Shown here: piece after piece, positions 13,386 through 35,978 of the stretch | Layout: each line of letters begins with the position of its first letter | How positions within the stretch are numbered: the stretch's first letter is position 1 | Assembly (NCBI RefSeq): GCF_002797445.1 | Contig: NZ_PGEP01000001.1 | Location: forward strand, 1,363,001-1,427,000 | Direction: 5' to 3' | DNA from: Acidovorax sp. 69 | Lineage (GTDB): Bacteria > Pseudomonadota > Gammaproteobacteria > Burkholderiales > Burkholderiaceae_C | DNA length: 64,000 nt | Program-made: the position numbers and the translations under genes | Notes under the pieces: model-generated | Databases searched by the model: none | Seen by the model: only the letters and a program-made list of their open reading frames with translations | What the model was told of the DNA's origin: nothing

Positions 13386-13400
13386 AGTAAGTATGCAAAC

Positions 13401-16223: not shown

Positions 16224-16227
16224 CTTT

Positions 16228-16264
16228 GTGCTGCGACCGCAGCGACTCGCTGCGGTCGCAGCAC
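16228..16264 (+). terminator. Perfect 17-bp hairpin after the DUF3987 gene
   Basis: GTGCTGCGACCGCAGCG (16228-16244) pairs perfectly with 16248-16264 around the loop ACT, four bases after the stop codon. Only a weak T tract (TTATTTG) follows, so it may be a terminator, an mRNA-stabilising stem, or a protein or replication site. Confidence 0.65.
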
Positions 16265-16410
16265 TTATTTGAAAAATTACGCTACTCCACCAAAACGGAT
16301 GTAAGTGCACGAGAGATTGTTCTCCAACATGCCGAGGGATTGGTGTGTTCCTCAGGGGTTCTTTGATATTTACTGCTCAGATTGGAGCTTTTAAATAGGG
16401 AGTGTATGTT

Positions 16411-17541: not shown

Positions 17542-17557
17542 GTAGGCGCGGAATCGG

Positions 17558-17576
17558 AAGGGGCACAACGCCCCTT
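17558..17576 (+). terminator. Hairpin after the Gp2-like gene
   Basis: AAGGGGC and GCCCCTT pair around ACAAC, 16 bases after the stop codon. No long T run follows. Probable terminator for the module and possibly for the convergent nuclease gene. Confidence 0.55.
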
Positions 17577-17628
17577 CGTCCGAGCACCGTACAGTGGCTA
17601 TGCATCCTGACTCGTTTGGGATGAGGGC

Positions 17629-18444
17629 TCAATGAGGCACTGCATTTTTGGGCAAAAACTCCACGCCCGTGCGCTTCACGAGCTCCTGATAGCTGATCGG
17701 CCGACCCACCGTCTCCCCCTCGCGGTTCTGTTGCCAATGCGCCCAGGCCTTGTTGGTCGTGGCGTCATAAACGAGCTTGTACAGGTAAGTCGGCACCTTC
17801 ACCCCATTGGCTCCAATTCGTGGCCCCGCATCCGTGAACACCGGCCCGGTGATCACAAACACATCCCCCTTGGCCCGCTTCACATAGTGCCGTGTGTCCT
17901 GCTCGATCTTGCTCCAGGCGCCGCTGTTGTGTTGGGCAATCTGGGGAACCATGTTCGCCAGACTGAAGCTTTGCGCCATCGCCGTAGGCGTCGGCATGTC
18001 TCCCGCAGGCGCCATGTGACCCCGGCTGTAGCCTGAGTTCTTGTAGTCCTCCAACTCCGCCCGTTCGCCAAAGGGCAATCGCGCATCCGCAAAGAATCGC
18101 TTCGCCCGCTTCTCGTCGGCATCCTCGATGAGCCTGCGATTCAAGCGTTGGGCCACAAACACCGGTGTCTTCGTCGTCCCGGAGTGCAGCACCGCAAACG
18201 CCTCATAGCAAAGCTCACGCAGCTGCGGCCGGGGCGTGATGGCCGGTGGTATGCCATTCGCAAAGAACTGCGGGCACTGAGCAAAGGAGGTGGGCTCGGG
18301 CGTGAGCAGCGCCGCACTGTCGAATTGCGCAAACCGCGCCCAGGAAGGATGGGGGAGAGCAGCGCCGGCAAGAGTCAGGGCCAGCAGAGCTGCCAGGCGC
18401 ACACGGCCTGGCCAAGAGGACAAACGATTCACAGAAGAAGACAT
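17629..18444 (-). CDS. DNA/RNA non-specific endonuclease (NucA/EndoG family), secreted
   Basis: 271 aa from the ATG at 18444 (MSSSVNRLSS), chosen because a Sec signal peptide follows (VRLAALLALTLAGAALPHPSWA). The betabetaalpha-metal nuclease signature is SRGHMAPAGDM, with catalytic His in RGH, then the structural LANMVPQIAQHN, whose Asn binds Mg2+. FVITGPVF is also family-typical. It would degrade nucleic acids in the periplasm or outside the cell. The first residue of the usual DRGH is Ser here. It stands alone, convergent with the satellite module. Confidence 0.9.
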   Translation of the reverse strand: MSSSVNRLSSWPGRVRLAALLALTLAGAALPHPSWARFAQFDSAALLTPEPTSFAQCPQFFANGIPPAITPRPQLRELCYEAFAVLHSGTTKTPVFVAQRLNRRLIEDADEKRAKRFFADARLPFGERAELEDYKNSGYSRGHMAPAGDMPTPTAMAQSFSLANMVPQIAQHNSGAWSKIEQDTRHYVKRAKGDVFVITGPVFTDAGPRIGANGVKVPTYLYKLVYDATTNKAWAHWQQNREGETVGRPISYQELVKRTGVEFLPKNAVPH

Positions 18445-18555
18445 CGAGTCAAACAAAACGGAGCCCGATTGGAGCACCGTTCATCTCTCACTTCTGGTCC
18501 GAATGCTCGGATCCCGCAGGGTTTTACAGCTGCTTGCAGCGACAGGGCCCACAAA

Positions 18556-18586
18556 CAGAAAGGGCTCCCTTCGGGAGCCCTTTCTG
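18556..18586. terminator. Strong bidirectional hairpin terminator
   Basis: A perfect 14-bp stem CAGAAAGGGCTCCC with loop TTC, with A-tract and T-tract inside the stem. It separates the end of the SRAP gene (18755) from the start of the nuclease gene (18444), both on the minus strand. Confidence 0.8.
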
Positions 18587-18754
18587 CCTGCCCGCCCCTG
18601 CGGTTCAGTGAACACTCCCCATGGCAACAGCACCCGCAAATGCGATGTGCCACCACCATGGGAAGTCTTGCAACTGCATCAATTCAACCCAAGCAGTTGG
18701 TATGCCAAGTTCCATGGCGCTGAATTCGCCAAAGGGTGAGGGCTTCTTCATGCA

Positions 18755-19453
18755 TCACACTGATTCGACAGGTAACTCTACCTGCTGTGCCGGATCTTTC
18801 GCCCGGTGCACAAACAGCTCCAGTGGCGGCACTTTGATCAACGCCTCAGCCTGCTCGATGGTGCCGTGCAGCCAGGTGTCCCAGTCGCCCTTTTCCAGCG
18901 GCACCACGGTACGCTTGTCCTGCATGTCGGGCGCGCGCTTGGGGTCTGGCCGGTGCATCAAGTTCAGCACCGGCACGTCGTCGCAGTTCTGCGTGACCAT
19001 GGTGTAGCTGGGCAGCACCTCACCCGTGGCCGGGTCAGTCCACTCGCTCCACAGGCCCGCCAGGCCCCAGGGCTCGCCGTCGGCGCGCTCGAACTGCCAG
19101 GGGATGTGCTTGCCTGTTCCCCAGTAGGGTTCGACGTACAACTGCGCCGGGATGATGCAGCGCTGTCCCTTGCGCCAAGGGCCGCCATAGGTCCATGACT
19201 TGGCCATCCCTTCGCGCCGGGCGTTGACGGTGCTCAGGCGCTTGCCATCCTTGCCAGTGGGGATGTGTGTCTTAGAGTGCGGCGGGATCATGCCCCACTG
19301 GCCTACCACCAACTCGCGCCCGGCTTCGCCCTTGGCCCGCAGGAACGGCCCACGGTACAGCGGGCTCATCTTGTCGCGCCACTCTTCCTCGGGCACGTCA
19401 CCGAAGTGCAGCACCAACTGCTCACGGCCCGGGACCTCGTAGTAGGTACACAT
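18755..19453 (-). CDS. yedK: SOS response-associated peptidase (SRAP/YedK family)
   Basis: 232 aa. Cys2 is present after the initiator Met, as required for the thiazolidine crosslink to abasic sites in single-stranded DNA. Other active-site elements are STVNARRE (Asn), CIIPAQLYVEPY (Glu of the conserved WxE region), and NLMHRPDP (His). The N-terminus reads MCTYYE rather than the common MCGRY/F, which marks a divergent subgroup. SRAP proteins protect abasic sites at replication forks. The gene diverges from umuDC across a region containing a LexA box, so SOS control is likely. Confidence 0.9.
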   Translation of the reverse strand: MCTYYEVPGREQLVLHFGDVPEEEWRDKMSPLYRGPFLRAKGEAGRELVVGQWGMIPPHSKTHIPTGKDGKRLSTVNARREGMAKSWTYGGPWRKGQRCIIPAQLYVEPYWGTGKHIPWQFERADGEPWGLAGLWSEWTDPATGEVLPSYTMVTQNCDDVPVLNLMHRPDPKRAPDMQDKRTVVPLEKGDWDTWLHGTIEQAEALIKVPPLELFVHRAKDPAQQVELPVESV

Positions 19454-19481
19454 GGCAACATTCTGGCAGCAGGGAGTTATA

Positions 19482-19497
19482 CTGTAAATATGTACAG
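19482..19497 (+). promoter_or_regulatory. LexA (SOS) box
   Basis: CTGTAAATATGTACAG matches the CTGT-N8-ACAG SOS operator consensus and lies between the divergent SRAP and umuD genes. The assigned umuD ATG (19490) lies inside the box. Confidence 0.85.
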
Positions 19498-19936
19498 TCT
19501 TTGGAATTCCCCGCTACCCGTGCCGTACGACACGGCGGCGCAGTCGCTGGCCTTGCCCCTGTGCGGGGTGAGCGTGCGCGCGGGGTTTCCATCGCCAGCT
19601 GACGACTTCGTTGTGGAGCGGCTGGACATCATGCAGCTGCTGGTGAAGCACCCCCAGGCCACCTACTTCTGGCGCGTGCGGGGCGACTCGATGCGCGACG
19701 CTGGCATTGAGGACGGCAGCATCATCGCGGTGGACCGGGCGATCAAGCCCAAGCACAACAGCATCGTGGTGGCCATTGTGGACGGCGAATGCACCGTGAA
19801 GTATCTGCATCAGCGTGCCGGCCGCATCAAGCTGCGCGCGGCCAACCCCACCTATCCCGACATCATCCCCCGCGACAGCCAGACCATTGAGGTGTGGGGC
19901 GTGGTGAGTGGGTGCGTGAAGCTGTTTCTCACCTGA
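19490..19936 (+). CDS. umuD: UmuD-like polymerase V accessory peptidase
   Basis: 148 aa, the usual UmuD size. The self-cleavage bond is probably Ala31-Gly32 in RAGFPSPADD; E. coli uses CysGly in the same FPSPA context. The catalytic pair is Ser67 (RGDSMRDAGI) and Lys104 (CTVKYL). RecA-stimulated self-cleavage yields UmuD', the partner of UmuC in error-prone synthesis. The ATG overlaps the LexA box and has a poorly spaced GGGAG, so the transcript may be nearly leaderless or the start may differ slightly. umuC follows after 20 bases. Confidence 0.9.
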   Translation: MYSLWNSPLPVPYDTAAQSLALPLCGVSVRAGFPSPADDFVVERLDIMQLLVKHPQATYFWRVRGDSMRDAGIEDGSIIAVDRAIKPKHNSIVVAIVDGECTVKYLHQRAGRIKLRAANPTYPDIIPRDSQTIEVWGVVSGCVKLFLT

Positions 19937-19956
19937 TCTGATGGACGGAGGCCAGC

Positions 19957-21255
19957 ATGTATGCGCTGGTGGATGGCAACAATTTTTACGTGAGCTGCGA
20001 GCGGGTGTTCCGCCCCAGCCTGAACGGCCGCCCGGTGGTGGTGCTGAGCAACAACGACGGCTGCGCCATCGCCCGCAGCAATGAAGCCAAGGCCCTGGGC
20101 ATCAAGATGGGGGCGCCGTGGTTCCAGATTCGGCACATGGAAGAGACTCACGGCCTGGTGGCCTTGAGTGCCAACTTCACCCTATACGGCGACATGAGCA
20201 ACCGGATGATGAGCCTGGCGGCGGGCCTGGGCCCCTCGCAGGAGATCTACAGCATCGATGAGTCGTTCATCGGCCTGCAGGGGCTACGGGGTGACCTGGG
20301 CACACGCAGCCACGCCATCCGTGCCCGCATCCACCAGTGGGTGGGCATCCCCTGCGGCATTGGGATTGGCCAGACCAAGACGCTGGCGAAGCTGGCCAAC
20401 CACATCGCCAAAACGGCCGAGCGCAAACCGGGGAGCTACCCAGCCGAGCTGGCCCAGGTGTGCAACCTGACCGCACTTCCTGCCCAAGACCTGGACGACG
20501 TGCTGGCCGCCACGATGGTGGAAGAAGTCTGGGGCGTTGGCCGCAAGATAGCAGCGCAGCTGCATGAGGGCGGCGTGCATACCGTGCTGGACTTGGCGCG
20601 GCTGGACCCGGCCATGGTGCGCAGGCGCTGGAGCGTGGTGCTGGAGCGCACCGTGCGCGAGCTGCAGGGTATGCAATGCATAGAGCTGGATGATGCGCCC
20701 GAGCCCAAGAGAGAGATCGCCTGCACCCGGTCGTTTGGCCATGCGGTGACCGAGCTGCCCCCGTTGGTAGAGGCTGTGAGTGAGTTCGCCAGCCGCGCGG
20801 CCGAGAAGCTGCGCAAGCAAGGCAGTCTGGCCAGTCAGCTGCTGGTGTTCTGTCACACCTCCCCCTTCCGACCTGGTCCGCGCTTTAACAAGTCGGTGGT
20901 GGTCCCCCTGCGCCGACCTACTGCGGACACCGGCAAGCTGGTCTGGGCGGCCGCAGCTGGCATGCGCCGCATTTATGAGCCTGGCTACAAGATGGCCAAG
21001 GCCGGGGTGATGCTGCTGGACCTGATGCCAGGCAATGTGCTGCAGTGTGAGCTGGATCTGGAGGATGAAGACCACCGGGACCGCACCCAACTGATGGTGG
21101 CGCTGGATGCGCTCAACCAGCGGTATGGCAAGGGCACGGTGCATTCAGGTGCCACGGGCGGCACCAACAAGGGCAAGGACTGGGGGATGAAGCAGGAGAG
21201 GCGTACGCCGCAGTACACGACGCGGTGGGAGAATGTGCCTGTGGCGCGGGCCTGA
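19957..21255 (+). CDS. umuC: UmuC-like Y-family DNA polymerase V
   Basis: 432 aa, full length. Palm-domain metal ligands lie in [16 protein letters not shown] (Asp) and YSIDESF (Asp-Glu). [21 protein letters not shown] is the conserved finger region, and [15 protein letters not shown] and [12 protein letters not shown] are the thumb HhH-like segments. The C-terminus carries the UmuC-specific DUF4113 region ([17 protein letters not shown]: [13 protein letters not shown]). It performs translesion synthesis with UmuD'. Second gene of the umuDC operon, under the LexA box at 19482. Such copies are common on plasmids and islands. Confidence 0.95.
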
Positions 21256-21370
21256 AAATGGGAGTGCTGCCACGCCCGAGGGCGGCTCTGCAGCGGTTGC
21301 AGTCGATGACGGTGGGCCGGCGAAGGACGGCTTTTTGTGCTCTTACCGCCATTCACCCCACAGCAGGAGG

Positions 21371-23602
21371 CTAGTGGCCTTTAATACTTATCCACCATAC
21401 GTAAATCAAGCCATGGAGTACGCTTGGTTGTGTCAGACTATTCTTGATCCGATCGATAAGTTCGAGGCTGTCGGTTTTGGTGAGGCGTAGCCGCTGAGTA
21501 GCTAGCGCCAAGCCAAATTCCAGGGAGGCTTCGCCGTACGGGCGGTTTGCATTGAGGAAAACCTTCTCAAGAAACTCGCGCAGCATCTCGCTCAGTTCTG
21601 GCGAACCAGAATAATCAAGTTCATGTGCATCGGCTGCTCGAAGTAAGCTCGCCTGCAGCACGCCATCGTTAAAGCGAAGAAAGTTCTCAACGTCCAGGAC
21701 AACGGCCTCGTGCATTGATGAACTCAATCGGCTACCTACCTCCTGATGCTCTCGCGCGTTTTGTAGAGCGGCTGACATGGCCAGGAAGCTCACTGCAGCA
21801 TTGTTGCTTGCAGCGCGAATTTCATCTGTTGGATCCCAGAATACGAAACCGCTTGTCAGTTGTAGGACATTGCCAGACTCGGTCCGCAGGTAGCCGTCTC
21901 GAAGTGAATCCAGAGCCTTTGCCATTTCCGAAATCGAAGCTAGGGACTGCTCCTTGGGCCACGGCGCATGATCGGTGATGTCCATTTGGTCGGCTTGCTG
22001 CATAAGTTCGGCTGCGCGCCGCCAAGCATCCCCGGTTCCAGATGGAGCGCCTGTGGGTAGAACCTTCCAAGATGAAAGCAGGTATGGACGCTCCTTGTCT
22101 CCGGACTGGATTAAGAACTGCTTGAGCCGAAGCCAAGCGCGCATCGTTTCAGGTAGCCCGACAGCCACGACAAAGTGCCGCGACGCCTTAGGCACAAGCT
22201 CTCGAAGGTCGCGTGCGATGGCTCTCAGACTGTGACCGTCACCGACGACGGCACCGCACACAAGAACCCCGGTTACTTCTGTACGAGTCGTATCACCAAG
22301 GGCCAATAGATCTGCCAAGCTCACGAGCTTCGGTGGCCGGCCAGCAATGCCCTGCAAAATTTGTCCACAGACCTGCGCCATACGTTGTCCACCCGCGCCA
22401 TCAAGACCAAGGATGTGTGAGACGCTAGCCGGCGTCTTGAAGCGAACTTCGTCTTCCAGCCATGCTTTCAATTCTGTGTTGTCTGCGACCGTTGCTTCAT
22501 CTAGGCTGACGAGGTCCGTGCGAGCGGTGTTTTCGGCACGAGCATGGTTGAGTCGGAGCACGGAACGATGACTGAAGTGCTTGAGCAATGCTTGCAGCGA
22601 AGCAGGCTGGTGGGCTTTAGTAAGCACGAAAGGCCGCGGCTTTTTTCCCTGGGCAGCAAAATACTCGCCAGCGAGTTCGATTACGGTCTCGTTATGACTT
22701 CGCTGTGGTCTGCTCGCTTCGGTATGTCTATTGCGCGCGTAGACAACGCTACCAAGCCTGCCATCATCGGACATGTCCAGAAGGGTTATCAAAGCGTCTT
22801 CAGGCACTCCGTCCTCGCGAAGTTTCGCAACCATTGATCCAGTCGTCGACGCGCTTACAAGAACCGCATCAGAGTCGGTCAGCACGGTGTGTAGTCCTGC
22901 CATTCCTCCGTGCGAGTGGAAGCTATCTATCTCCCATGTTGGTACTTTGCCGCCGCAACGGCGCGTGATGTCCTCGACCGCCCGAGCTACTGGATAGATT
23001 CCCATGGTGTCAATGTGCAGTGTTGACGTGCCCTTCAATCTGTTCCATGCGGTGATACAGACCGCGACAGCCACAAAGTAGGCATCCACCTCGTCCCTCA
23101 GAAGCTCACTCGCCAGCAAAAACTGTCGCGTCGCGCGCCCAGAAGGGTGCTTGAATATGTGGCCTGGAGGTGCTTCCTGAAACGCTCCCCGGACATCAAC
23201 AAGTTGTGCTAGTCCGTCGCGCCAAAGCTTTGCAAGGTCGAGGTCGTAGCTCTGTCGCGATTGGTCGTCGCGAAAGATCTTGATGAACGAGCCGTCATGG
23301 AACTTCCAAATTGCTAGCTCTTTGAGGTAGTCCACAGCGTTCCGCTGGCCTCGTCTCACAAGACCGTCAGCGCGCGTCTTGTTCTGCTTCCAAACTTCGA
23401 TGAGGCGATCTGCGTGTTCATCAAACGACACAAGTAGCACGGCGTCCGGTAGCGGATCATCCGTCTTCAGGTTGTCCTGGATTTCATCGTCTAGGACGTT
23501 CATATCGAGTTCAGCCCGCCCGAAAAACACCACGAGCACATCGATGAACTCTCCGGAGCCCCTACAGTTTGTACGAGACCTGAAGGCGTGGGTGCGCTTC
23601 AT
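21371..23602 (-). CDS. Phosphoribosyltransferase-like protein, partner of the GHKL ATPase
   Basis: 743 aa; no named family recognised. Residues about 148-260 follow the order of an orotate-phosphoribosyltransferase-like fold. KHPSGRATRQFLLASE resembles the SGKxSxxY strand-helix entry, STLHIDTMGIYPVARAV the GGIPLA loop, and DAVLVSASTTGSMVAKL the PRPP-binding motif (normally VDDVxTTGxS). The two acidic residues of the PRPP motif are replaced by Ser-Ala, so catalysis would be atypical or absent. The remaining 480 residues are mixed alpha/beta with no familiar motif. The ATG overlaps the stop of the GHKL gene by four bases (ATGA), so the two are co-translated; M34 is an alternative start. Last gene of the cluster starting at 29282. 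Confidence 0.6.
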   Translation of the reverse strand: MKRTHAFRSRTNCRGSGEFIDVLVVFFGRAELDMNVLDDEIQDNLKTDDPLPDAVLLVSFDEHADRLIEVWKQNKTRADGLVRRGQRNAVDYLKELAIWKFHDGSFIKIFRDDQSRQSYDLDLAKLWRDGLAQLVDVRGAFQEAPPGHIFKHPSGRATRQFLLASELLRDEVDAYFVAVAVCITAWNRLKGTSTLHIDTMGIYPVARAVEDITRRCGGKVPTWEIDSFHSHGGMAGLHTVLTDSDAVLVSASTTGSMVAKLREDGVPEDALITLLDMSDDGRLGSVVYARNRHTEASRPQRSHNETVIELAGEYFAAQGKKPRPFVLTKAHQPASLQALLKHFSHRSVLRLNHARAENTARTDLVSLDEATVADNTELKAWLEDEVRFKTPASVSHILGLDGAGGQRMAQVCGQILQGIAGRPPKLVSLADLLALGDTTRTEVTGVLVCGAVVGDGHSLRAIARDLRELVPKASRHFVVAVGLPETMRAWLRLKQFLIQSGDKERPYLLSSWKVLPTGAPSGTGDAWRRAAELMQQADQMDITDHAPWPKEQSLASISEMAKALDSLRDGYLRTESGNVLQLTSGFVFWDPTDEIRAASNNAAVSFLAMSAALQNAREHQEVGSRLSSSMHEAVVLDVENFLRFNDGVLQASLLRAADAHELDYSGSPELSEMLREFLEKVFLNANRPYGEASLEFGLALATQRLRLTKTDSLELIDRIKNSLTQPSVLHGLIYVWWISIKGH

Positions 23603-24795
23603 ACTGTAGGACGCGGCAAAGGGATAAAGATGCTCACAAGAGTGCCGGCTACACGAAGTAGTCCGCGCTCAGGGCCAAACCAATTCTCGAAATCCAAGTT
23701 CTGAACTTGGCTACTTTCCCCCGGCAAGAAGCATTTGAAGATGGCTTGCCTACCGGAACGAATTCGGACAAAACCAGCCGCTTGGGCAATTTCAGACAGA
23801 ACTGCGTTGAGCCCAAGGCCAGTCGCATGGTTGCTCTTGGAGGTGACGTGCATTCTCAAACATTGTCGAAGCGCGCTGGCCTCTTCCTTTTCAGTCATCT
23901 GAAAAAGCGGCTTGCCGAGTAGCCGAGCCGCCATACCAGGACCCGAGTCCAGAAAGTTGAAGCAAAGGCCTGACACCCTGTCTCGCCCGGTTTGGCACGA
24001 TGAGATGGCTTCCCAATATTCGCGAAGGGTTTCATTCCCGTAGAAATCTCCTTTGGCATCCTCCTCCGAGCTTGTAATCCAACCAACATTTAGCAGCTCA
24101 ACGTGTCTTCTGTAGACTTGGCCGCGCTCATCTGCAATCGCATGGTCTTGGGTATTTTCAAACAGCTCATGCGTGAGGGTAGCGAGCGATGAAAGTGTGC
24201 CCTCGTCAAGGTCTGTAGACGAAGGTGCTGCGCGCATTGCAAGACCGCGAATAGTGGACTTAAGGTCAAATTTGTCCTTGACCTGTCTTGGCGAAGGTCC
24301 GTTGAACAACGGTTTGAGGAACTGACGTGACGCACCACTCACCGAGAGAAGGTCGATAGTCCTTCCACGCACGAGCGAGGCATAGTCACCTTGGTAGGCT
24401 GCCTCGATTCTCGACTTGGCGCCCACAAGCGCAAGCTGCCGAGCAACGGATTCACCACGCACCTTGACCGAGCCGCTAACCGACATGGCTGCGATGCCGA
24501 TGGAGTAGCCACAGGCTTCGTCGAGGATTTCAGAGTCACTTTGCTCCGAACCACCGCCCACGTTAAGGGCAGCGTCCGGATTCAGACGAGACCAAGTCAG
24601 CAACGCTTGGAGATATGCTGCGTCTCGAAGGGAGCCACGCCTCTTGTTTAGGTTTCCGGCTGAAACAGCGAGTCCATACTCACGATGCCCATGGATAGTG
24701 CCCAGAGCCCGTTCAATGTCCTCTAGTGAGTCGATGCCAGTAAGGCGAAATTCCTGGGACGGGTTCATCGGATAGCTCAAACCTGACGATGTCAT
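23599..24795 (-). CDS. GHKL-family (HSP90/histidine-kinase-like) ATPase
   Basis: 398 aa. The Bergerat ATP-binding fold is visible: N box HELFENTQDHA (209-219, with E213 and N214), G1 box FLDSGPGM (281-288), G2 box HATGLGLNAVL (323-333). There is no phosphoacceptor His domain, receiver or membrane segment, so it is not an ordinary sensor kinase. Residues 1-190 form an uncharacterised N-terminal domain (FRLTGIDSLEDIERALG). ATG 24795 or 24768 could be the start; neither has a strong ribosome-binding site. Coupled by overlap to the downstream phosphoribosyltransferase-like gene and 272 bases after the glycosyltransferase-radical SAM gene. Stand-alone GHKL ATPases of this kind are frequent in bacterial conflict systems. 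Confidence 0.75.
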   Translation of the reverse strand: MTSSGLSYPMNPSQEFRLTGIDSLEDIERALGTIHGHREYGLAVSAGNLNKRRGSLRDAAYLQALLTWSRLNPDAALNVGGGSEQSDSEILDEACGYSIGIAAMSVSGSVKVRGESVARQLALVGAKSRIEAAYQGDYASLVRGRTIDLLSVSGASRQFLKPLFNGPSPRQVKDKFDLKSTIRGLAMRAAPSSTDLDEGTLSSLATLTHELFENTQDHAIADERGQVYRRHVELLNVGWITSSEEDAKGDFYGNETLREYWEAISSCQTGRDRVSGLCFNFLDSGPGMAARLLGKPLFQMTEKEEASALRQCLRMHVTSKSNHATGLGLNAVLSEIAQAAGFVRIRSGRQAIFKCFLPGESSQVQNLDFENWFGPERGLLRVAGTLVSIFIPLPRPTV

Positions 24796-24846
24796 TGGAC
24801 ATGTTGTAGAGCATAGCTCAGTGGCAATGCGTCTGTTGGCTAAGGC

Positions 24847-25179
24847 TCAAACATTTGCTCTCACAGACGCCGCTGTGGAGCAGTCATATCGGCGCAGATC
24901 GCTACCAGCCAAGAGCTGGAGTGCGGCAACTTCAATCGCTCCACTTTGACTATCGCCGACCAGTTTGAAACGCCACGTTGGGGGCAATCCTGCAGCCATT
25001 GCGATCCTTGCTTTGAGAAACTCAATGCCCGGAAAGGGTCGCTCAACATTGTCGTGACTGATCAGATCTAGTAGCCCGCGGCGACGAGTTGCTTGAAGTC
25101 CAGCACAAAATCTCGCCGTAAATAAAAGGTCCGGTACGCTTTCTCCACCATCGCGAAGTACTGGTCGGGCTTGTTCCAC
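24847..25179 (-). other. Overlapping open frame at the end of the radical SAM gene
   Basis: The gap between the radical SAM gene stop (25068) and the GHKL gene is filled by a protein-like frame. It reads HDNVERPFPGIEFLKARIAM then GLPPTWRFKLVGDSQSGAIE and ends at 24847. Its only long-form start is a GTG inside the preceding gene, in another frame. It may be a small translationally coupled gene, or the tail of the 1404-aa protein reached by frameshifting or lost by a mutation. No family recognised. Confidence 0.3.
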
Positions 25180-28100
25180 GTAACCCTATTCAACACCTCG
25201 CCGGCTGGCCCATCCTTGGCGTGATAGTCGTTGTACTTCACGAGATCCTCAAATCGGAAGCCCAGGCGTGCAAGCTGCTGATAGGTGCGCCGTTCAGCCG
25301 CGTCGACCGGTTCGGAAAGGCTCGCTGCGACCGGGGCCGCGACAATGTGCGTACGCGTCGTGAACGCGTCGTCCCATGCAGACAGCATCTGCTCGTAGTC
25401 AAGCAGGCTCTCCGTCACTGGATCACGCAACCCACGATCTTGGCTTAGCTGCTTCTGCGCTCGGACAAAGTCCTTGTAGAGCGCAAAGTAGGCCAGCGTT
25501 GCGCCCGATGACACCGCGAACGAAATCGTCTCCCTTGTCAGGCGTGCGTTTTCCTTATGGCCACCAATGATGAAGTAGGCCTTGGTGAAGATCCCTGCGT
25601 CGCGAAGTCTCCTGAATAGATTCCTGATCACCTGGTTCGTGAACTTACGACCACCTGCCTTGACGCTGAACCGTCGCGCTGCATTGCCCGACTCCACGCC
25701 AAACGCCAGCATGTTGCAGCCTGCCGCAGAGAGAAGGTTGACAAATCCACCCTTCTCGCCCTGCGCTTCATACGCGTCGAAGTCCTCAAGCCTAAAGATG
25801 CCGCGCCAAGTCAGGCTGCCGCTTCGCTCGCGTCGGATCGTGGCAAGCCCGTTCAGGAACCGCTCGGCCCAGGCCACCCCCTCTTTCACCCGGACGCTTC
25901 CGGCGTTTTCCGGCGATGCGATTTGAGGAAGCAGGTTGTCATCGATGAACTGAATTCGTAAATTGGGATGCGAAACCGCGAGTTGGCGTATTTCCTCCAA
26001 GATGGAGTCGACCTCGCGCCGACGCTCGCCTTTACTCAGACTTCGTCGCTCAGTGCAGAAGCTGCAGTTCCAGTCGCAGCCCTTGGACATCACCACGTGA
26101 GCCTCGTGAACGCGGCCCTTCACATCCCGTGTCTTGCCTGGCTCGTACGGCCCCTCAGGACCAGCGTACAGCCTCCGGTCCAGTTGGATCTTCATCCAGC
26201 CCAAGTCACTGGCCGGCTTGTCCACGCCCGTAACGGCGGCTGCGGGCATCACCTTAACGTCGCGCAGGGCGACGAAACTGCTGTGCGGGTTCGCAACCAA
26301 CCCATTGCTCAGCGGCCAGGGGTTCGTCGTCTTGAGCGCCTCCACCAGCAGCTCGAGGTTGCCAACGGCGTCGTCGGAGATCGCGAAATCCCAGTTCTCT
26401 CGGTCACCCTCATTCATGGCCGAGAACTGCCAGCCATCGAGGTTGGCTGCAGGCCCGCCAACCACCAGAACAGGTCGCCCAGTCGCGTTGCGGATCCGGC
26501 TGAGCATTTGCCGAGTAGACCGAACCGTGCTGAAAACCGTGTTGAAGCCGATCAGGTTGAACGTCTTGGCTCGATTGATTACATCGGTGACCAAGTTCGG
26601 GAACCGGTGGCAGTCGATAAGGTGGACGTCATGCCCGAGATTCGAAATGTGGGTTGCCAACAGCCCGAGGCCAAGAGGAGGCGTGCTGGTTTTTGATGCT
26701 GCTCGACCCGCGGCGGTTTGAACGGAGATTGGTGGCAGTACCAGTAGCACTCGCTTGACGAACTCAGCTGCGCGTTCCCGTGCGTCTATGACTTCGGGAT
26801 GCATCTGGCGGCCCAATGTGCCGCCCTTATGTCCCACGCTGGGCCCAAATAGTTCCCTCGACTTGGGGAAGTCCGTCAAGGTGAACTTGGCCAGCTGCGC
26901 TGGCCACGGATCCTTCGAGCTGTGCTCCTCGCGGTAGTGGTGCAAGAACTCCCGAGCCAGCCAGGGATGCCCGCCATCGAACGAGACGGCAATATCAACT
27001 ATTTTGCCAAGCTTGGCACATAGCGTGCGGCCAGAGCCTGAAGACGCATCCGACGACGCCAACCGGACGCGCAGCACAGGAGAAAAGGCGAGGTCAAGCG
27101 CAGCCCATCGGATGGCCTCTTCTTCATCATTGGCCATTGCCTCCAGCACATGGAATACATGCGCACTCGAGATGGAGACCGTGATCATCCCCGCCGCGAG
27201 GCGCTTATCGCCACGCCAGGTCTTGGTTACCTCATTTTTGGGGTCCAGCCGGTTGAAAAAGCCGATTGGCTGTTCCATCGACTGGCGCGCGGCGTCGGGC
27301 TTCAAGCTGAATAGCGCCAACGCTGTAGGCGCAATGTCGGCCTCACGCTGAAGCAGCTCCCCGATGTCAAACGGCCTTGCCATGGCCCTGGCGCATCGGG
27401 CTGATTCCTCAGCGAAGTCTGGGAGCCCTTCCGTGTTGATCACGCGTTTGAGGTTGGGATTGGTCACGCACAGGCGAGCCACACGGATGCGCAACGCACT
27501 ATCGTGAGGGAGATGCTTCACCAGGGGTTCAAGGAAATCTCCGGCCTGGTCATCGAACCGACCGTCAAAGTCGGCCGAATAGCGTGACACGTAAAAGAGC
27601 AGCTCCTTGCGCAAAAACCCGTCCCCGAATATGCGATCGCGCATCACGTCAGGCAGGAGTGCCTTGAAGTCGCCGAAGTTCTTCGCCAGCTTGGAGGCTG
27701 CGGCCATGAACCTCCAACACAGATCGAGGAACACCGTGTCGAGAATCGGCAGCCCGCCTGCTTTGACATGGCTAGCCAATGCCTCAGAGATCGCTCTCCC
27801 TATCGTCTCCAGTGCCGTTTTGAACTCCCACCGATCCTTCATGGTCGCAGTAGCGCCGACATCGCTGAAGAAGTTCATTGCGGAACAAACCTGGCCCCAG
27901 TCGCGCTCGACATGCCCTGATTGACACGCCTCCAGCGCGGTCAGCATCATTTCGGCACCAGCAGCCCCGTCTCGACTGTCGACCGCTCGCTGCGCGGCCA
28001 ACTGGCGCTGAAACCAGTCTCGCGGGTTCGCCCATGGCCACTTGGCATTGGCCAGGAGTTCGGCAGCACACCCTTCCCAGGTGAACAACTGCCTGATGAG

Positions 28101-29282
28101 TGGCGCGAGTTCCATCGCGGCCTTCTTGCGAGCCGGGTACTCGCGCACCATCTTTTGAACTGCATCGCGCAGTGCATTCGTGTCCTGCTCGGAGGGGTGC
28201 CCGGCCGGGGATCCGCCGGCCATGACGACGGGAAGCACCCCAGCAAAGTCCGAGTCCGGGAACCGATCCCGAAGTTGGCCGACCAAGACAGCCAGGCCGG
28301 ATTGAGTCGAGCAGACCAATGGAACGCCTGCACAAAGCGCCTCCCAGCCAGCCAGTCCGAAGCCTTCGTGCCATGACGGCATCAGCGCCACGTCGGCATT
28401 GATGAGGTAGTCATGCAGATCTTCCTGCCGATTCGTGAACGGCATCGGTTCCAGTTCAAAAGCGGCGTCCTCGCGGACGTCTCTTTTCAATATGTCGATG
28501 AGCTCGCTGTCCTTCTCGGGATCGACACCACACGCATAGAAGTGCCCGCGCTGCGTCCAGCGCCCAGGGGTTGCACTCGACCTTTCCGCGACATAGGCGG
28601 CTTTCACGGCGCGAACTGCCAGCACCCCGTTCTTGATCGGGTCGTCCTCAAGGCCTAGTCTTCCGCTCATATAGAAGCTCAGCGCCCCATCGCCCTCGGC
28701 TTGCGCCCTGATGGTTGAACTTCCAGGTGTCAGTGCAATGACCCGGTCCTTGCGATCGCGACGCGCCTTCTGAAATCCATCGGCCAGCAGTGGCCCGATA
28801 GCAAACGCAAAGTCGGCGGCAAAGACAACAGCGTGCTGCCTGCGTGACTTCTCAAAGACGCTGGGCAGCGACTGCCCCTTGCGTCGCGAGTATTCGGCGT
28901 AGTCCATGTGACTGATCACTGCCGACTTCACCGACGTGTCGCGGCCCAGCCGAATCTGCAGATCCTTGGCGCAGTCGATAGCCAATTGACCCGTCTTCAG
29001 ATCATGCCCGATGACCAATATCCCTTCGATATCGGGCAGCGGCGTCTTCAGAACCTCTTTAAGAACGGTCTCCAGCACCACATCGACTTCAAAGGTCCTA
29101 GGACTGATGACCTCGACCTTCAAGGGAGTGGCTGTCTTCAACGCCTCCTCAACGACGCAAATGCAACGGCCGCCCTTTGGAATGATGTTGGCGACCCCTC
29201 GTGCCAATCCCGTGTTGACCACGTTGATGCCACCATGCGTGCTGCCCCAACCTGTGGCAATGCATACAACAATGTAGGCCAC
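25068..29282 (-). CDS. Glycosyltransferase (GT4-like) fused to B12-binding/radical SAM protein
   Basis: 1404 aa, GTG start with GGGAGAGAGA just upstream. Residues 1-415 are a GT-B glycosyltransferase: glycine-rich TGWGSTHGGINVV near 10-22, then SWHEGFGLAGWEALCAGVPLV with the GT4 E-x7-E pair E306/E314. Residues about 420-830 are helical, possibly HEAT-like. Residues about 845-1000 resemble a cobalamin-binding Rossmann domain (PPLGLGLLATHISNLGHDVHL; VLVVGGPAA). Residues about 1055-1300 are radical SAM, with the 4Fe-4S cysteines 1069, 1073 and 1076 in KGCDWNCSFC, and IQFIDDNLLP and FGVESGN typical of the B12-dependent class. Substrates are unknown. First gene of the minus-strand cluster continuing to 21371. 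I know of no named family with this fusion. Confidence 0.7.
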   Translation of the reverse strand: MAYIVVCIATGWGSTHGGINVVNTGLARGVANIIPKGGRCICVVEEALKTATPLKVEVISPRTFEVDVVLETVLKEVLKTPLPDIEGILVIGHDLKTGQLAIDCAKDLQIRLGRDTSVKSAVISHMDYAEYSRRKGQSLPSVFEKSRRQHAVVFAADFAFAIGPLLADGFQKARRDRKDRVIALTPGSSTIRAQAEGDGALSFYMSGRLGLEDDPIKNGVLAVRAVKAAYVAERSSATPGRWTQRGHFYACGVDPEKDSELIDILKRDVREDAAFELEPMPFTNRQEDLHDYLINADVALMPSWHEGFGLAGWEALCAGVPLVCSTQSGLAVLVGQLRDRFPDSDFAGVLPVVMAGGSPAGHPSEQDTNALRDAVQKMVREYPARKKAAMELAPLIRQLFTWEGCAAELLANAKWPWANPRDWFQRQLAAQRAVDSRDGAAGAEMMLTALEACQSGHVERDWGQVCSAMNFFSDVGATATMKDRWEFKTALETIGRAISEALASHVKAGGLPILDTVFLDLCWRFMAAASKLAKNFGDFKALLPDVMRDRIFGDGFLRKELLFYVSRYSADFDGRFDDQAGDFLEPLVKHLPHDSALRIRVARLCVTNPNLKRVINTEGLPDFAEESARCARAMARPFDIGELLQREADIAPTALALFSLKPDAARQSMEQPIGFFNRLDPKNEVTKTWRGDKRLAAGMITVSISSAHVFHVLEAMANDEEEAIRWAALDLAFSPVLRVRLASSDASSGSGRTLCAKLGKIVDIAVSFDGGHPWLAREFLHHYREEHSSKDPWPAQLAKFTLTDFPKSRELFGPSVGHKGGTLGRQMHPEVIDARERAAEFVKRVLLVLPPISVQTAAGRAASKTSTPPLGLGLLATHISNLGHDVHLIDCHRFPNLVTDVINRAKTFNLIGFNTVFSTVRSTRQMLSRIRNATGRPVLVVGGPAANLDGWQFSAMNEGDRENWDFAISDDAVGNLELLVEALKTTNPWPLSNGLVANPHSSFVALRDVKVMPAAAVTGVDKPASDLGWMKIQLDRRLYAGPEGPYEPGKTRDVKGRVHEAHVVMSKGCDWNCSFCTERRSLSKGERRREVDSILEEIRQLAVSHPNLRIQFIDDNLLPQIASPENAGSVRVKEGVAWAERFLNGLATIRRERSGSLTWRGIFRLEDFDAYEAQGEKGGFVNLLSAAGCNMLAFGVESGNAARRFSVKAGGRKFTNQVIRNLFRRLRDAGIFTKAYFIIGGHKENARLTRETISFAVSSGATLAYFALYKDFVRAQKQLSQDRGLRDPVTESLLDYEQMLSAWDDAFTTRTHIVAAPVAASLSEPVDAAERRTYQQLARLGFRFEDLVKYNDYHAKDGPAGEVLNRVTWNKPDQYFAMVEKAYRTFYLRRDFVLDFKQLVAAGY

Positions 29283-29483
29283 TTCTCTCTCCCTCTGTTC
29301 GTTTGACGGCAGATCTCACTGCCACACGGACCGTTTCTGATGGACTGTGTCTTTTAGTGAAGTCGAAGCGAATGTCCACAGCCCTGCCTTAGTAAGGGCA
29401 ACGTAGCTTTCTAGCTGTGACGATAACGATTATGAAGGCTCACTAGGTACACCGGCTGGGCTACCCCGGTCGGGTAAACGCTC

Positions 29484-29739
29484 ATGGTTGGCCTCAAAGC
29501 GGTCGCTAGATTCTTCTCGACGCTTAAGATCGAGCGCTGCGCTCGCACGGTGTACCTAAGCAGAGAACAGGCAAGGGCCGATATTTTCGATTACATCGAG
29601 CGGTTCTATGACCCGCCCAGGAAACACTCAAAATTGAACTACCTCAGCCTGGTTCAATTCGAATAGCGGGAGCGATTCAAGGGCCAAGCAAAGCGTCCGG
29701 GAAACTGGGGGAAGCCCACACTCCGGGAGCACCGATAAG
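29484..29739 (+). pseudogene. IS3-family transposase C-terminal remnant
   Basis: The C-terminal rve segment of an IS3 OrfB: VARFFSTLKIERCARTVY, then REQARADIFDYIERFYDPPRKHSKL and SLVQFE. An in-frame stop at 29664-29666 interrupts it before RERFKGQAKRP. The catalytic core upstream is missing. A scar between the upstream end of the radical SAM cluster and the next gene pair. Confidence 0.75.
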
Positions 29740-30104
29740 GCATGCGGCTTTACCTGAATTGGATTCACGATGGTGAGGGCGCTAGCTTCTTCATATCCGA
29801 CCTCCACACGGCGTGCGAAACAAGTTTGGACTGAAGTCTCCATGGGGTCACCGCGACCTTAGCGAAGTGTTAACTAAGCGTGTTTTACCTTACTGGGTGG
29901 CGTGTGGTTTGGTAACCGTGAGCGGTGGAGACGTGATTGTTATCGGATCACGGCCACGAAGGTAACGACGTTCAGCTGGCCGACGATGCGACCCGTTCGG
30001 TAGCCGATAGTGCTTCGCTTCTCCGTACCGATGCGGATGTTCACGCAGAAAGCTTGAAACCAATCACCTACTCCCATTGAGCCCCCTAGGCTGCGTGTGA
30101 CCGC
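29740..30104. other. Intergenic stretch, no gene seen
   Basis: About 365 bases after the IS3 remnant. Frames are short and no motif is recognisable. It probably contains IS3-associated debris and the 3' region of the DUF2726 gene. Confidence 0.5.
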
Positions 30105-32771
30105 TCAAGTTCTAACGCCAGACAGGTCTTCCAGCAGACCACGCGCTTGGTCGTACCCGGGCAAGTCGGCGCGCAGGCTGCGCACCAGTTCATCGACGTG
30201 CTCGGCGACCTGGGCACGGATGGTGTTCTCGGACGGGCTGCCGACCGGCCGAAGGCGCATGAACGGAATGCCGGCGGCTGCGAACAGCCGGTCCTTCTTG
30301 TTGTCGTTCCGTTGCTGGCGCTCGGTGTCGTGCCAGACCGAATCGACTTCGATGGCCAGCATGGGCAGGTAGGTCGTCGACGACACGACGACGATGTCGA
30401 CGCTCGCCCGCAGGTAGTAGCCGAAGTCGTCATCGCTCACCAGCTCCTTCATGCGGTCGAAGCTCATGACGCTCTGCAGCGCGCAGTTCGGGAACACGAG
30501 GTGGTTGGGGCACAACTGCACCAGCACCTGGTAGATGGTGAACTCGCGCTGGCTGTTGAACACTTGCTTGACCGCGCTGGTGCCCTGGGAGCGAACAATC
30601 CTGCCGATGACCGCGTGCTGAGACTCGCGTTCAAGCAGCGGCGCGATGTGCGGGTTGATGCGGAAGGTCTTGTCCGTGACCAAGAGCATCCCGAGCTCGA
30701 CCAGCTTGTCGTAGTGTCGGCCGGCCCAGGTCAGGTCCATGCCGGCGTACTCCGCCACCTCGGCCAGGCCGTTGTAGCTCTTGATGCTGGCGAACACGCT
30801 GAGCAGCTTGCGCGCAGGTGCGGTCAGCGACGGCCAGCGACTAACCGCCGTCCGCTCGAACTGGTCGCGTTTGTTCAGGGTGGCAAGGCGCGCCTTCGCA
30901 TCCGTCAGAAGCTGCTGCACCACGTCGGCGCGACTCGACGTCGGCATCTCCTCTTGAAGCTTGTCGACGAACTGCTGCACTTGGCCCAGGTCCTCGGACC
31001 GGGCCCAAAGCAGCTTGGCGTTCTTCACACTGACGTCGGGCAGGTTCTCGGCGGTGTCGAGGTTGATGAGGTAGTAGTGCAGGGCATCGTCCGGGTCGCC
31101 CGCGACCTGCTCGAGGTAGGCCAGCCGGAACGAATGCTCCTTCTCAAGAAGGTCATCGCTGAAGTCGCGGGCCAGGGGCAGCAGCTGGGCTCGCACCTTG
31201 TCGCCAAGCTTGGACAACGCGTCGAAAATGTCCCCCACGACCTCGAGCCACATGCGCCGGGTCTTCTCGGTCATCTGCTGGCGCACCGCCGACAGTTGCT
31301 CGAGTGCATCGAGCACCGGCCAGGCTTCGGGCTCATCGAGGTCCTCGCCGCTGAGGTCGCCAGAGTAGTAGTTCTGCGGCATCGGCACGCCAGCACTTGT
31401 CGCTCGACGCATAGCGTCGAGCAGCAGGCGCATCCGACCCGCCACTCCTTGGATGACGTAGGCCGCCGCGAGCTGGAAAGACAAGCTCTGCTCGCATAGC
31501 CAGGCAAGGCCCGGCATGTCCTCGTCGCCGTGCGCCTCGTCCTCCAGCGGGGAGTACTGGGTACTGGCGGTGAAAATCCGATAGAGGCTCTCGAGCTCGG
31601 CTCGCCGTGCGAAGTCCTCGGGCGAATGCTCATACAGCCGCAACAGCAGGTCGCCGACCGATGCCATGTGCAGCCCTGACATTCCCACGTAGATTTCCTG
31701 CACCCCCTCGGACAGCGTCATCGTCAGCTGCTCCCCGAACCAATGGGCGTCAGCATCGGCTAACCGCATCAAGGCGCGCACCGCGAGCGACAAATGCTCG
31801 TCCACGTCGGCGGGCGCGGCCGACAGGGCACAAAGCACCCGGCGAAGCCCTTCACAGGCATCGCAGGCGAATGGCTCGGGGAAGCGCTGCAGCAGGTCGG
31901 CCAAGCCCTCGCCGGGGGTGTGCTCGAGCATCCACATGAAAGCCCAGGCACGAGGTGTCAGCCGCAGTTGCGCGCGGCCCGACGATTCGTCCTTCGGCAA
32001 GGCGATGAGGGAGCTCTCGCTCGGGCATGGAAGCCGAAGAAGCGCGTCCCCAACTCGCCCATAGTCCCACGGGTCAGCCATCAGCAGGTCGAGGTCGAGC
32101 CGCAGCACATTGACGAGTGCACGGCCCTCTTCATCGAGGGCTCCGCCCTGCTCTGCCGCCGCATAGGCTTCGCTGAGCGCCAAGGTGAGGTCTGGAAGGG
32201 CGGCCAGCGTCTCCTGGTCAGTGGCCGAAATTTCCTCGCCCCGCCGCCCCTCCCTGGCCCGCAGCAGCGTCAGCGCGCGCCCTCGAAGCTTCCGCAGCCA
32301 GTCGACATTCGTGAGCTCCATGCAGGCACGCGACAGGCGCCGGAACGCTTGTGCGCTGCCGTCAATCGACCACCCCTTGGATTCAAGATACAGCTCGAAC
32401 TCCGGCAGGGTGTGCAGCGCACCGACGCGGGCGGCCAACTGCTCGAGCGCGTCATCGAACTCCTTGCGTGCAGCCGTTGGCAGGTCGTAGATGGACTGCA
32501 CGCCGGGCGGATAGAGGCCAACAATTTTGAGCCGCAGTTGCCACACCTCAGCTTCCTTGCGGTCGTCCTCGTGAATGGCCCTCAACGGCACACGGCCCAG
32601 CGCGAGAATCTCGGCCCAGGCCTTGTTGTCAAAGTGAGCTCGAGCCGAGGCCTGCATGTCCGCCAAGCGGAACTGCGACTCCGCGAAGGAATCCGGCTCG
32701 ACGGCGATGGCACTCACCGCGGCCACTACTGCGGCCGTCGCCTGCAGCTTTTTCTTCGACTTCTTACTCAT
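30105..32771 (-). CDS. Large protein with C-terminal DUF2726 nuclease-like domain
   Basis: 888 aa from the ATG at 32771 (MSKKSKKKL, GGAGGG upstream); a longer frame adds 20 residues with no ribosome-binding site. The start overlaps the stop of the upstream gene by four bases (ATGA). Residues 1-25 are Lys-rich. Residues about 40-680 are helical and repeat-like, possibly TPR/HEAT. A winged-helix-like segment follows (ASIKSYNGLAEVAEYAG, WAGRHYDKLVELGML). Residues about 750-850 match DUF2726, a PD-(D/E)XK-type domain: D792 (ASVDIVVV), E808-x-D810 (AIEVDSVWHD), K825/K826 (NKKDRLFAAAGIPFMRLR). This suggests a sensor-nuclease layout, though activity is inference. Stable partner: the 557-aa protein upstream. 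Confidence 0.65.
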   Translation of the reverse strand: MSKKSKKKLQATAAVVAAVSAIAVEPDSFAESQFRLADMQASARAHFDNKAWAEILALGRVPLRAIHEDDRKEAEVWQLRLKIVGLYPPGVQSIYDLPTAARKEFDDALEQLAARVGALHTLPEFELYLESKGWSIDGSAQAFRRLSRACMELTNVDWLRKLRGRALTLLRAREGRRGEEISATDQETLAALPDLTLALSEAYAAAEQGGALDEEGRALVNVLRLDLDLLMADPWDYGRVGDALLRLPCPSESSLIALPKDESSGRAQLRLTPRAWAFMWMLEHTPGEGLADLLQRFPEPFACDACEGLRRVLCALSAAPADVDEHLSLAVRALMRLADADAHWFGEQLTMTLSEGVQEIYVGMSGLHMASVGDLLLRLYEHSPEDFARRAELESLYRIFTASTQYSPLEDEAHGDEDMPGLAWLCEQSLSFQLAAAYVIQGVAGRMRLLLDAMRRATSAGVPMPQNYYSGDLSGEDLDEPEAWPVLDALEQLSAVRQQMTEKTRRMWLEVVGDIFDALSKLGDKVRAQLLPLARDFSDDLLEKEHSFRLAYLEQVAGDPDDALHYYLINLDTAENLPDVSVKNAKLLWARSEDLGQVQQFVDKLQEEMPTSSRADVVQQLLTDAKARLATLNKRDQFERTAVSRWPSLTAPARKLLSVFASIKSYNGLAEVAEYAGMDLTWAGRHYDKLVELGMLLVTDKTFRINPHIAPLLERESQHAVIGRIVRSQGTSAVKQVFNSQREFTIYQVLVQLCPNHLVFPNCALQSVMSFDRMKELVSDDDFGYYLRASVDIVVVSSTTYLPMLAIEVDSVWHDTERQQRNDNKKDRLFAAAGIPFMRLRPVGSPSENTIRAQVAEHVDELVRSLRADLPGYDQARGLLEDLSGVRT

Positions 32772-34441
32772 TCGCCCTCCTTGATGCAGTCGATGTCCAG
32801 GTAGATGGCGTGCCCGAAGGCGAACGACCACATATTGGGAAGCTTCTCGATGACGCCTTCCGTCGAGATGAGGTGCGGCATCACGCCAACGTACATCTCC
32901 AGGCCCATTGCTTCGAGCTTCAGCCGCAGCTCCTCGCCGTCCCCGGCATAGCAGAGGTACGGCAGCGGGTCGTCACTTTCGACGAACTGCCCAAGCTGCT
33001 GCATCTTCTGGATGCGGATGGAGGCACTGAAGTCCTCGATGGCATCGCGAATGCCTTCGACCTGGTCGGGGGTCAGGTCTCGCGGCGTCCGATAGCGCAC
33101 GAAGTCCACACGCGGCATCAGCGAGCGGATGAGGGTGTCGTCGACGGCCTTGGCCAGCTTCGCCCGCGGCGGTGAGGCAAAGAGTTTGTTGGGGTCCTTG
33201 AGCTTCAGGTGTTCCGCCAGCGTCATGACGAAGCCAACCTTTACCTCAGGAACCTTGTCCTGCTCGATGCCGGTTTCGGCGCAGAACGAGTCCCAGTCGT
33301 GGCCAGCGTCGTTCAGCGCGTGGAATACCCGATGAAGGTCGACGCGATAGGTGTCGTCCGGGCCGCTCAGGTATTTCAGCTGCTTTGTGAGGTGGTGGTG
33401 CTTCACTTTGCCGCCGAGGATGCGCTTGGCCAGACGGTAGCGCCGAAGCAGCTTCTCGGATTCGGCCCCGGTCAGCATCGAGTGAGCCTGGCCAGGAACG
33501 TAGTCGTTGGGGTGCAGGGTCGTCATCTGCCACACATAGCGGCCCTTGCCGACACGCCAGGCGGCCTCCTCCAGGGAAATGTCCAGCGGCTGGCCCTTCG
33601 CTTCGTCCTTAACGGCCAGCTCGAGTTGGGACCAGCACGTCATTTCGTCGCCGCGGGCGATTTCGAACCCGTCGCCTGGCATCAGCTCGTTGTCCTCGCG
33701 AAGGAGCACCAGCTCGGAATTGCAGGTGTCGTCGGGCGTGACGGGCAGCGGGATGGCCGGCAGGCTCGCCAACACTTCGGATCCGTGTCGACCGCAAATC
33801 TGGAGCGTTGCTACCCCGTCCAGGATGGCCTTGTCGGTTTCCTCCAACCGCCTGCGGACCATCTCGAACGCCGCCGGCGCCTCGGCCAGCCAGCCCTGAG
33901 GGCCGCCAAGCGGAGTAATGGACAGTGCCGGCACCATGTCGGTCTCGCCGGCGACGCTGTCCTTCTTCGGCTCCGGCACGCAAACCAGGATGAAGTCGCT
34001 GCCGAACCGAACCTCGAACACCTTGGTGGGCTTGACCTGATGCCAAGCCTCGAGCCACTCGGCGAGCCGCGGCGCGAGCTCGTGCCAGCTGGAGAACTCC
34101 TCCTCCGGCGCCTTGACCACCATGGCGAGCTTGAGCTTCGGGGTGAGCGGCTCCAGATTGAGGGCGTGCCAGCTGGACCGGCCGAGGATGCGGGACGCGG
34201 CGTCCAGCGCTGCTGTGTGCTTGAGAGCGACGCCCGTGTCGCTCAGAGCCTTGCGCAGGCGCTTGGCCAGGAGCTTGGGGTCTTCATCGGGCCGGGGCTG
34301 GAGGCCTTCGACGACCTTGAGCGCGGCCTCGGAGGTGAAGCGGGGCACCTTGAGATGGACGTAGGTCCACAGGGCTGCGGCCGTAGCCTGTAGGTCTTGA
34401 GGGGAAGCGGGATGCGCCGTCGGCGCAGCAGTGTTTGCCAT
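32768..34441 (-). CDS. Uncharacterised 557-aa partner of the DUF2726 protein
   Basis: ATG at 34441 with AGGAG seven bases upstream; the track-style extension to 34462 lacks a ribosome-binding site. The N-terminal region contains KLLAKRLRKALSDTGVALKH and ALDAASRILGRSSWHALN. That resembles the small helical domain (alternating K-x-x-A, H-x-x-ALD-x-x-A, S/N-WHAL) found at the start of glyoxalase-superfamily and plasmid-borne proteins. The rest is mixed and unrecognised, with no catalytic signature. The stop overlaps the start of the DUF2726 gene, so the two proteins are made together and probably act together. Confidence 0.6.
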   Translation of the reverse strand: MANTAAPTAHPASPQDLQATAAALWTYVHLKVPRFTSEAALKVVEGLQPRPDEDPKLLAKRLRKALSDTGVALKHTAALDAASRILGRSSWHALNLEPLTPKLKLAMVVKAPEEEFSSWHELAPRLAEWLEAWHQVKPTKVFEVRFGSDFILVCVPEPKKDSVAGETDMVPALSITPLGGPQGWLAEAPAAFEMVRRRLEETDKAILDGVATLQICGRHGSEVLASLPAIPLPVTPDDTCNSELVLLREDNELMPGDGFEIARGDEMTCWSQLELAVKDEAKGQPLDISLEEAAWRVGKGRYVWQMTTLHPNDYVPGQAHSMLTGAESEKLLRRYRLAKRILGGKVKHHHLTKQLKYLSGPDDTYRVDLHRVFHALNDAGHDWDSFCAETGIEQDKVPEVKVGFVMTLAEHLKLKDPNKLFASPPRAKLAKAVDDTLIRSLMPRVDFVRYRTPRDLTPDQVEGIRDAIEDFSASIRIQKMQQLGQFVESDDPLPYLCYAGDGEELRLKLEAMGLEMYVGVMPHLISTEGVIEKLPNMWSFAFGHAIYLDIDCIKEGE

Positions 34442-35392: not shown

Positions 35393-35416
35393 TGCATATC
35401 TCCTTTCCGCGCCAGA

Positions 35417-35957: not shown

Positions 35958-35978
35958 GGTGCTTTCTCCTGTCCAGCC

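Follow-up and report, generated by a model that had tools for sequence, protein, structure and literature searches.

Three adjacent genes of Acidovorax sp. 69, probably a divergent PDC-M65 pair beside an unrelated GT4-conflict radical SAM protein

Do three large neighbouring genes on one strand make up one system? The question is raised by a stretch of 64,000 nucleotides from Acidovorax sp. 69 (contig NZ_PGEP01000001.1, positions 1,363,001 to 1,427,000), which was analysed whole, is called the window here, and is numbered from its first letter. A preliminary description of this DNA had proposed an undescribed three-gene system with a defence or conflict role, composed of a glycosyltransferase-radical SAM fusion, a GHKL ATPase and a phosphoribosyltransferase (PRTase)-like protein. 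The three minus-strand open reading frames (ORFs), of 1404, 398 and 743 amino acids (aa), were found intact where that description had placed them (Table 1), and the two shorter ones share a 4-base overlap. Its domain calls were also borne out, by Pfam for the 1404-aa protein, and by AlphaFold models and structure matches for the GHKL and PRTase folds. What did not survive is the single system. The three genes are most likely two unrelated units lying side by side: the translationally coupled gene pair M65A-M65B, and a stand-alone protein with GT4-conflict, B12-binding and radical SAM domains, here called GT4-rSAM.

One system or two

The reading as one cluster was based on shared strand and proximity only. 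The GT4-rSAM gene is separated from the 398-aa ORF by 272 bp, or by 299 bp if the distance is counted from the likely start of M65A. Because most homologues begin at Met10 of the 398-aa protein, the true start is probably at 24768 and not at 24795. No promoter-like or terminator-like match was listed in the gap, and such matches occur at near chance numbers, so this is uninformative.

Both units are sporadic and their counts are low, and genome-wide overlap therefore has little power; the weight is placed on adjacency and on searches of whole records. We counted 23 further M65 loci, found in five Pseudomonas genomes, one viral-collection contig, ten plasmids, and seven genomes that belong to the same family or order as the window, with Pseudomonas, Pantoea, rhizobia, Burkholderiales, Spirosoma and others as hosts. 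The flanks of four of these (L018, L019, L022 and L023) are related to one another, and these four do not count as independent cases. Dropped before counting were L038 (15% of the query), L044 (43 positions), L087 (PADLOC 1e-6, no A3/A4 match), L089 (96 positions, later no match) and the short weak matches L004-L017. M65A adjoins M65B, on its 5' side and on the same strand, in 23/23 loci, and the GT4-rSAM gene is absent from the DNA around the pair in all of them. M65B is in pieces in L021, L083 and L086, and in L036 and L085 a short M65B is separated from M65A by a 147- or 113-aa ORF.

The two units were also sought in each other's genomes. GT4-rSAM was detected in 0 of 22 M65-bearing genomes or records searched whole (12 genomes and 10 single plasmids, L023 being left out), a search without its own positive control, the same query having matched G000, G1006 and G1093 in other searches. 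Conversely, M65B was detected in 0 of 5 genomes or records with GT4-rSAM searched whole, in which six positive controls were detected; these five hold the gene (G319, G1006 and G1093), its N-terminal part (G330) or an interrupted copy (a Rhizobium plasmid). Among the sampled genomes, the window's own is the only one with both units; scoring in the large samples covered only part of the initial candidates, which makes an absence there weaker evidence. The preliminary description had stated that homologues never occurring together would speak against its system, and in what was searched this is largely the pattern found: M65A and M65B are always paired, and GT4-rSAM is never alongside them outside the window.

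Homology and composition divide the genes at the same place. DNA homology between window positions 17000-36000 and two related loci covers 25067-29281 (G319) and 27764-29410 (G330), and none of the M65 genes in either case. The G+C content at third codon positions (GC3) is 0.549 for M65A and 0.575 for M65B, against 0.709 for GT4-rSAM; the two genes of the nuclease pair at 30105-34462 have values of 0.818 and 0.837. On the co-occurrence counts, the homology edges and GC3, the single three-gene system was rejected.

The M65A-M65B pair

Is the pair itself undescribed? The preliminary description knew of no named system with this gene set, and the literature search found no paper naming PDC-M65; the pair, however, is already listed under that name as a PADLOC phage defence candidate. 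M65A matched the PDC-M65A profile (7.2e-20) and M65B the PDC-M65B profile (1.4e-58), judged by E-value and not against PADLOC's own cut-offs. The gene order is the same, and the lengths are similar (398 and 743 aa, profile lengths 398 and 763). The window pair differs in matching over partial stretches, best at residues 193-394 only of M65A and mainly 304-722 of M65B. Nine relatives from five other loci were also matched by these profiles. By its profile matches, then, the pair belongs to PDC-M65, a still unproven candidate, as a divergent member. No work on a GHKL and PRTase pair was among the literature matches listed.

None of the Pfam families matched M65A or M65B, and a sequence search of solved structures gave nothing significant for either. 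In the AlphaFold models and structure matches, M65A has the GHKL (Bergerat) fold with N-box and G boxes, and the GHKL residues Glu201, Asn205, Asp274, Gly276, Gly278, Gly317 and Gly319 are kept in 55/55 aligned rows. It differs from the GHKL anti-sigma factor kinase SpoIIAB by an extra N-terminal domain. M65B has a type I PRTase fold by the same approach, with structure matches spanning residues 332-598. The phosphoribosyl pyrophosphate (PRPP) loop of such enzymes normally carries two adjacent acidic residues. In the loop at 445-458, an acidic residue stands at 449/450 in 0 of 48 aligned rows, and in the loop SASTTGS (250-256) Ser250 and Ala251 stand in all 48. Because the acid pair is absent at 250-251 and 449-450 in every row, M65B, judged on these alignments, does not class as a PRTase enzyme, although the fold is present. 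It differs from orotate phosphoribosyltransferase (OPRT) and PyrR both in lacking this pair and in carrying extra domains on either side. Two PRTase domains in M65B were not borne out by profile comparison: segment 1 gave E 0.33 and segment 2 E 0.19 against 12 ORFs that we take, from their motif, to be OPRTs, and the two segments compared with each other gave E 0.029 (probability 1.7%).

M65B was found in 6/299 genomes of the window's family and 4/250 of its order; a phage collection gave no match. Known defence genes lie close to 12 of the 23 further loci, a count with no background rate to compare. These are HsdR (L084, L104), type ISP restriction-modification and GmrSD (L103), AbiE (L083), an AbiJ-type gene (L018) and relatives of it (L019, L022, L023), QatC/QatD (L034), TIR and multiubiquitin-ThiF (L027), multiubiquitin-ThiF (L033), and a Cap4-type nuclease with ThiF (L036). 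No defence gene was recognised by annotation in plasmid loci L025, L026, L028, L032, L035 and L037, and none in the partly examined L020, L021, L085, L086 and L102. These matches and neighbourhoods suggest that M65A-M65B probably acts in defence. As a separate observation, in three genomes of the order the genes immediately upstream of the M65 pair are type I or type ISP restriction genes (L104:344-6912, L103:7463-16001, L084:3735-10437), and the pair may be linked to restriction systems.

Two kinds of gene recur upstream of M65A. The first is thyX (FAD-dependent thymidylate synthase), which immediately precedes M65A in 3 of 10 plasmid loci, each of them from rhizobia, in apparent thyX-M65A-M65B operons (L027:7843-12202, L032:5543-9899, L033:5550-9902); it is identified as Thy1 by annotation in two and by Pfam (4.7e-56) in one. 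The second, a gene of about 143 aa, lies just before M65A in the viral contig and in four of the Pseudomonas loci, with a relative in G341. Examples are L018:8396-8827 and L083:11249-11974, and the L018 product matched no Pfam family.

What would M65B do in such a pair? Since the acid pair normally seen in a PRTase fold is gone from its own, a role as sensor or regulator is more likely for it than that of an ordinary PRTase. Alternatively, the pair could be an enzyme system, with M65B turning PRPP into an unusual nucleotide-like product and M65A powering or gating the reaction. The fold itself, residues that never vary in other places of the PRTase part and thyX upstream on three rhizobial plasmids agree with this, but the acid pair is missing in every row from both loops that are candidates for PRPP binding, and we consider the enzyme reading unlikely.

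The GT4-rSAM protein

The GT4-conflict match of the 1404-aa protein reaches 236.6 bits, against a Pfam cut-off of 26, and the B12-binding match falls just below its own. Pfam found no STAND, vWA, TRADD-N or other known conflict module in the protein, and its helical middle part has no assigned fold. A family search collected 98 proteins including the window's own, the others being 35-93% identical to it, from sources that include Burkholderia, Paraburkholderia, Pseudomonas, Stutzerimonas, Rhizobium, Sphingomonas, Comamonas and Crenobacter; in 94 of the 98, precomputed Pfam matches place the GT4-conflict, B12-binding and radical SAM domains together. Invariant in 31/31 aligned members are Glu306 and Glu314, Cys1069, Cys1073 and Cys1076, and a C-terminal Gly-Tyr. 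The two glutamates are those of the EX7E motif, and the CxxxCxxC cluster motif together with the B12 domain (slightly below cut-off) is what a B12-dependent radical SAM protein has. The catalytic motifs are intact in these comparisons, and the protein belongs to a family of its own, set by architecture and invariant motifs.

An effector function in conflict systems has been predicted for the GT4-conflict domain (Kaur et al., 2021, PMC8195603, main text). The N-terminal GT4 domain of the window protein is of the same Pfam family; the difference is the added B12-binding and radical SAM domains, the latter a term missing from that main text. A literature search on the term GT4-conflict gave no match, and no work on GT4 and radical SAM in defence was among the matches listed. 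In PADLOC, the best match of the window protein was an unconvincing 0.023 to PDC-M51A, and its G319 relative had no match at 0.001. GT4-rSAM was not found in viral contigs by a six-pattern scan, and a phage collection gave no match to it. Matches occur in 49/299 family genomes: long ones only in G000, G319 and G330, the GT4 part in G500, and short ones in the other 45. Matches to GT4 only made up 3 of 4 in the sample containing G000, and 5 of 7 in that containing G1006 and G1093. Separately, three proteins of 972-1301 aa (L100:6367-10272, L101:8256-11174, L114:8197-12045) carry GT4-conflict near the N-terminus and have differing, unidentified C-terminal parts.

Could GT4-rSAM be an ordinary cell-surface or natural-product enzyme? 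The closest NCBIfam models, phosphonate P-methyltransferases and sugar enzymes, would fit, all of them far below cut-offs, as would the GNAT and hydrolase genes that neighbour it in G319. The strength of the GT4-conflict match (6e-70) argues for a conflict protein instead, and so does the sporadic, single-gene occurrence (long matches in 3/299 family genomes and 2/259 of the genus of P. cedrina), with integrase genes nearby in two Pseudomonas-sample genomes (L112, L113; a DUF3987 gene in one) and one copy on a conjugative plasmid. We therefore doubt the ordinary-enzyme reading.

Surroundings and possible mechanisms

The neighbours named in the preliminary description hold: SOS genes, a nuclease-domain pair and a broken Hachiman locus (Table 1). 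The shortened HamA (217 aa) matches only positions 79-251 of a 257-position profile, and its 5' end is overlapped by a transposase ORF on the opposite strand. The 908-aa DUF2726 protein has a 40% relative over 92% of its length on four Variovorax plasmids. The genes from the integrase to the YagK/YfjJ-like gene, and those for the recombination-directionality-factor-like protein and YqaJ, probably mark a mobile element; integrase and DUF3987 genes lie near GT4-rSAM both here and in one Pseudomonas-sample genome.

Table 1. Features of the window (positions from its first letter)
Feature	Position	Strand	Basis or detail
M65B, 743 aa, PRTase-like, PDC-M65B member	21371..23602	-	ORF and PADLOC profile
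PRTase domain of M65B, about residues 332-530	22013..22609	-	structure matches over 332-598
possible first PRTase-like segment of M65B, about residues 123-330	22613..23236	-	loop SASTTGS at 250-256
M65A, GHKL-type ATPase, PDC-M65A member, 389 aa from likely start	23599..24768	-	398-aa ORF reaches 24795
gap between the two units	24769..25067	none	
GT4-rSAM: GT4-conflict, helical middle part, B12-binding, radical SAM; 1404 aa, stand-alone	25068..29282	-	ORF, Pfam, family search, DNA homology edges
GT4-conflict domain, residues 6-409	28056..29267	-	PF20706 6e-70; Glu306, Glu314
B12-binding-like domain, residues 861-952	26427..26702	-	PF02310 2.1e-7, 31.2 bits, cut-off 32.1
radical SAM domain, residues 1064-1255	25518..26093	-	PF04055 8.2e-11; Cys1069, 1073, 1076
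SRAP	18755-19453		
S24 peptidase and Y-family polymerase	19265-21255		
908-aa DUF2726 protein and 564-aa partner, overlapping genes	30105-34462	-	
Hachiman locus	3858-8930		HamB full length (PADLOC HamB1, residues 1-1166) beside shortened HamA
integrase and DUF3987 genes	11989-16223		
integrase, DUF3987 and YagK/YfjJ-like genes	11989-17541		
recombination-directionality-factor-like gene and YqaJ recombinase	39198-41744		
metal-handling genes: P-type ATPase with HMA domain, multicopper oxidase, outer membrane efflux protein, HMA-containing pyridine nucleotide-disulphide oxidoreductase	45057-61015		

Weakest of the alternatives is one three-gene system in which the ATPase controls the making of a modified sugar or nucleotide: the genes are adjacent on one strand, a PADLOC candidate pair does stand beside a GT4-conflict gene, and an exchangeable upstream partner is conceivable, M65 loci often having some upstream gene (thyX, the 143-aa gene), but the whole-record counts, composition, homology edges and a gap of 272-299 bp as against a 4-base overlap make it very improbable. 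Several points weigh against the two units as we read them. Ten of the 22 M65 records and one of the five GT4-rSAM records are single plasmids, and the neighbourhood counts leave out the metagenomic contigs that hold the nearest relatives, at 79-89% identity for M65 and 90-93% for GT4-rSAM. A Foldseek search with M65A gave zero matches at E <= 0.001, the acid-pair positions in M65B were located by eye against the usual motif, and its first PRTase-like segment is unsupported by the orotate PRTase profile comparison. Finally, thyX stands beside M65 only in rhizobia.

How might the two units work? M65A would be an ATP-binding GHKL switch, and the PRTase fold of M65B would bind a ribose-phosphate ligand, for example PRPP or a nucleotide. 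At rest, the pair would be held inactive by the ATP state of M65A together with the ligand state of M65B; phage infection would upset nucleotide pools and so act as the trigger, and the conserved C-terminal part of M65B, or a partner, would then stop the cell. This mechanism, with M65B reading the ligand, is offered tentatively. An experimental parallel for an effector under GHKL control is VcSduA, a Shedu protein with an N-terminal GHKL domain, for which PMC12137116 proposes that the GHKL ATPase controls a phage-defence effector. There the GHKL domain and its effector, a PD-(D/E)xK nuclease, form one chain, whereas M65 has a separate PRTase-like protein. The GT4-rSAM protein, for its part, might modify its target doubly, by sugar transfer and a B12-radical step of the methyl-transfer type, which we hold to be rather doubtful. 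It is less likely still that both of these unstudied mechanisms apply, emptied PRTase folds reading PRPP or nucleotides under a GHKL ATP switch with phage takeover as trigger, and a single-protein effector marking its target by glycosylation and B12-radical modification.

The conflict role proposed for the locus is thus partly supported. It fits the M65 pair, through PDC-M65 and the nearby defence genes, and the GT4-rSAM protein, through GT4-conflict, alike, and does not fit them as one system. Neither is a system of a new kind: the pair belongs, though divergent, to a candidate already listed, and the GT4, B12 and radical SAM fusion a variant of a described conflict domain. What had been taken for an undescribed three-gene system now reads as two units that can be tested apart. 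For PDC-M65 this adds a structural interpretation (GHKL and degenerate PRTase) and a possible link to nucleotide metabolism via thyX, and the GT4, B12 and radical SAM family, present in several groups of Pseudomonadota, is now defined by its architecture and invariant motifs.

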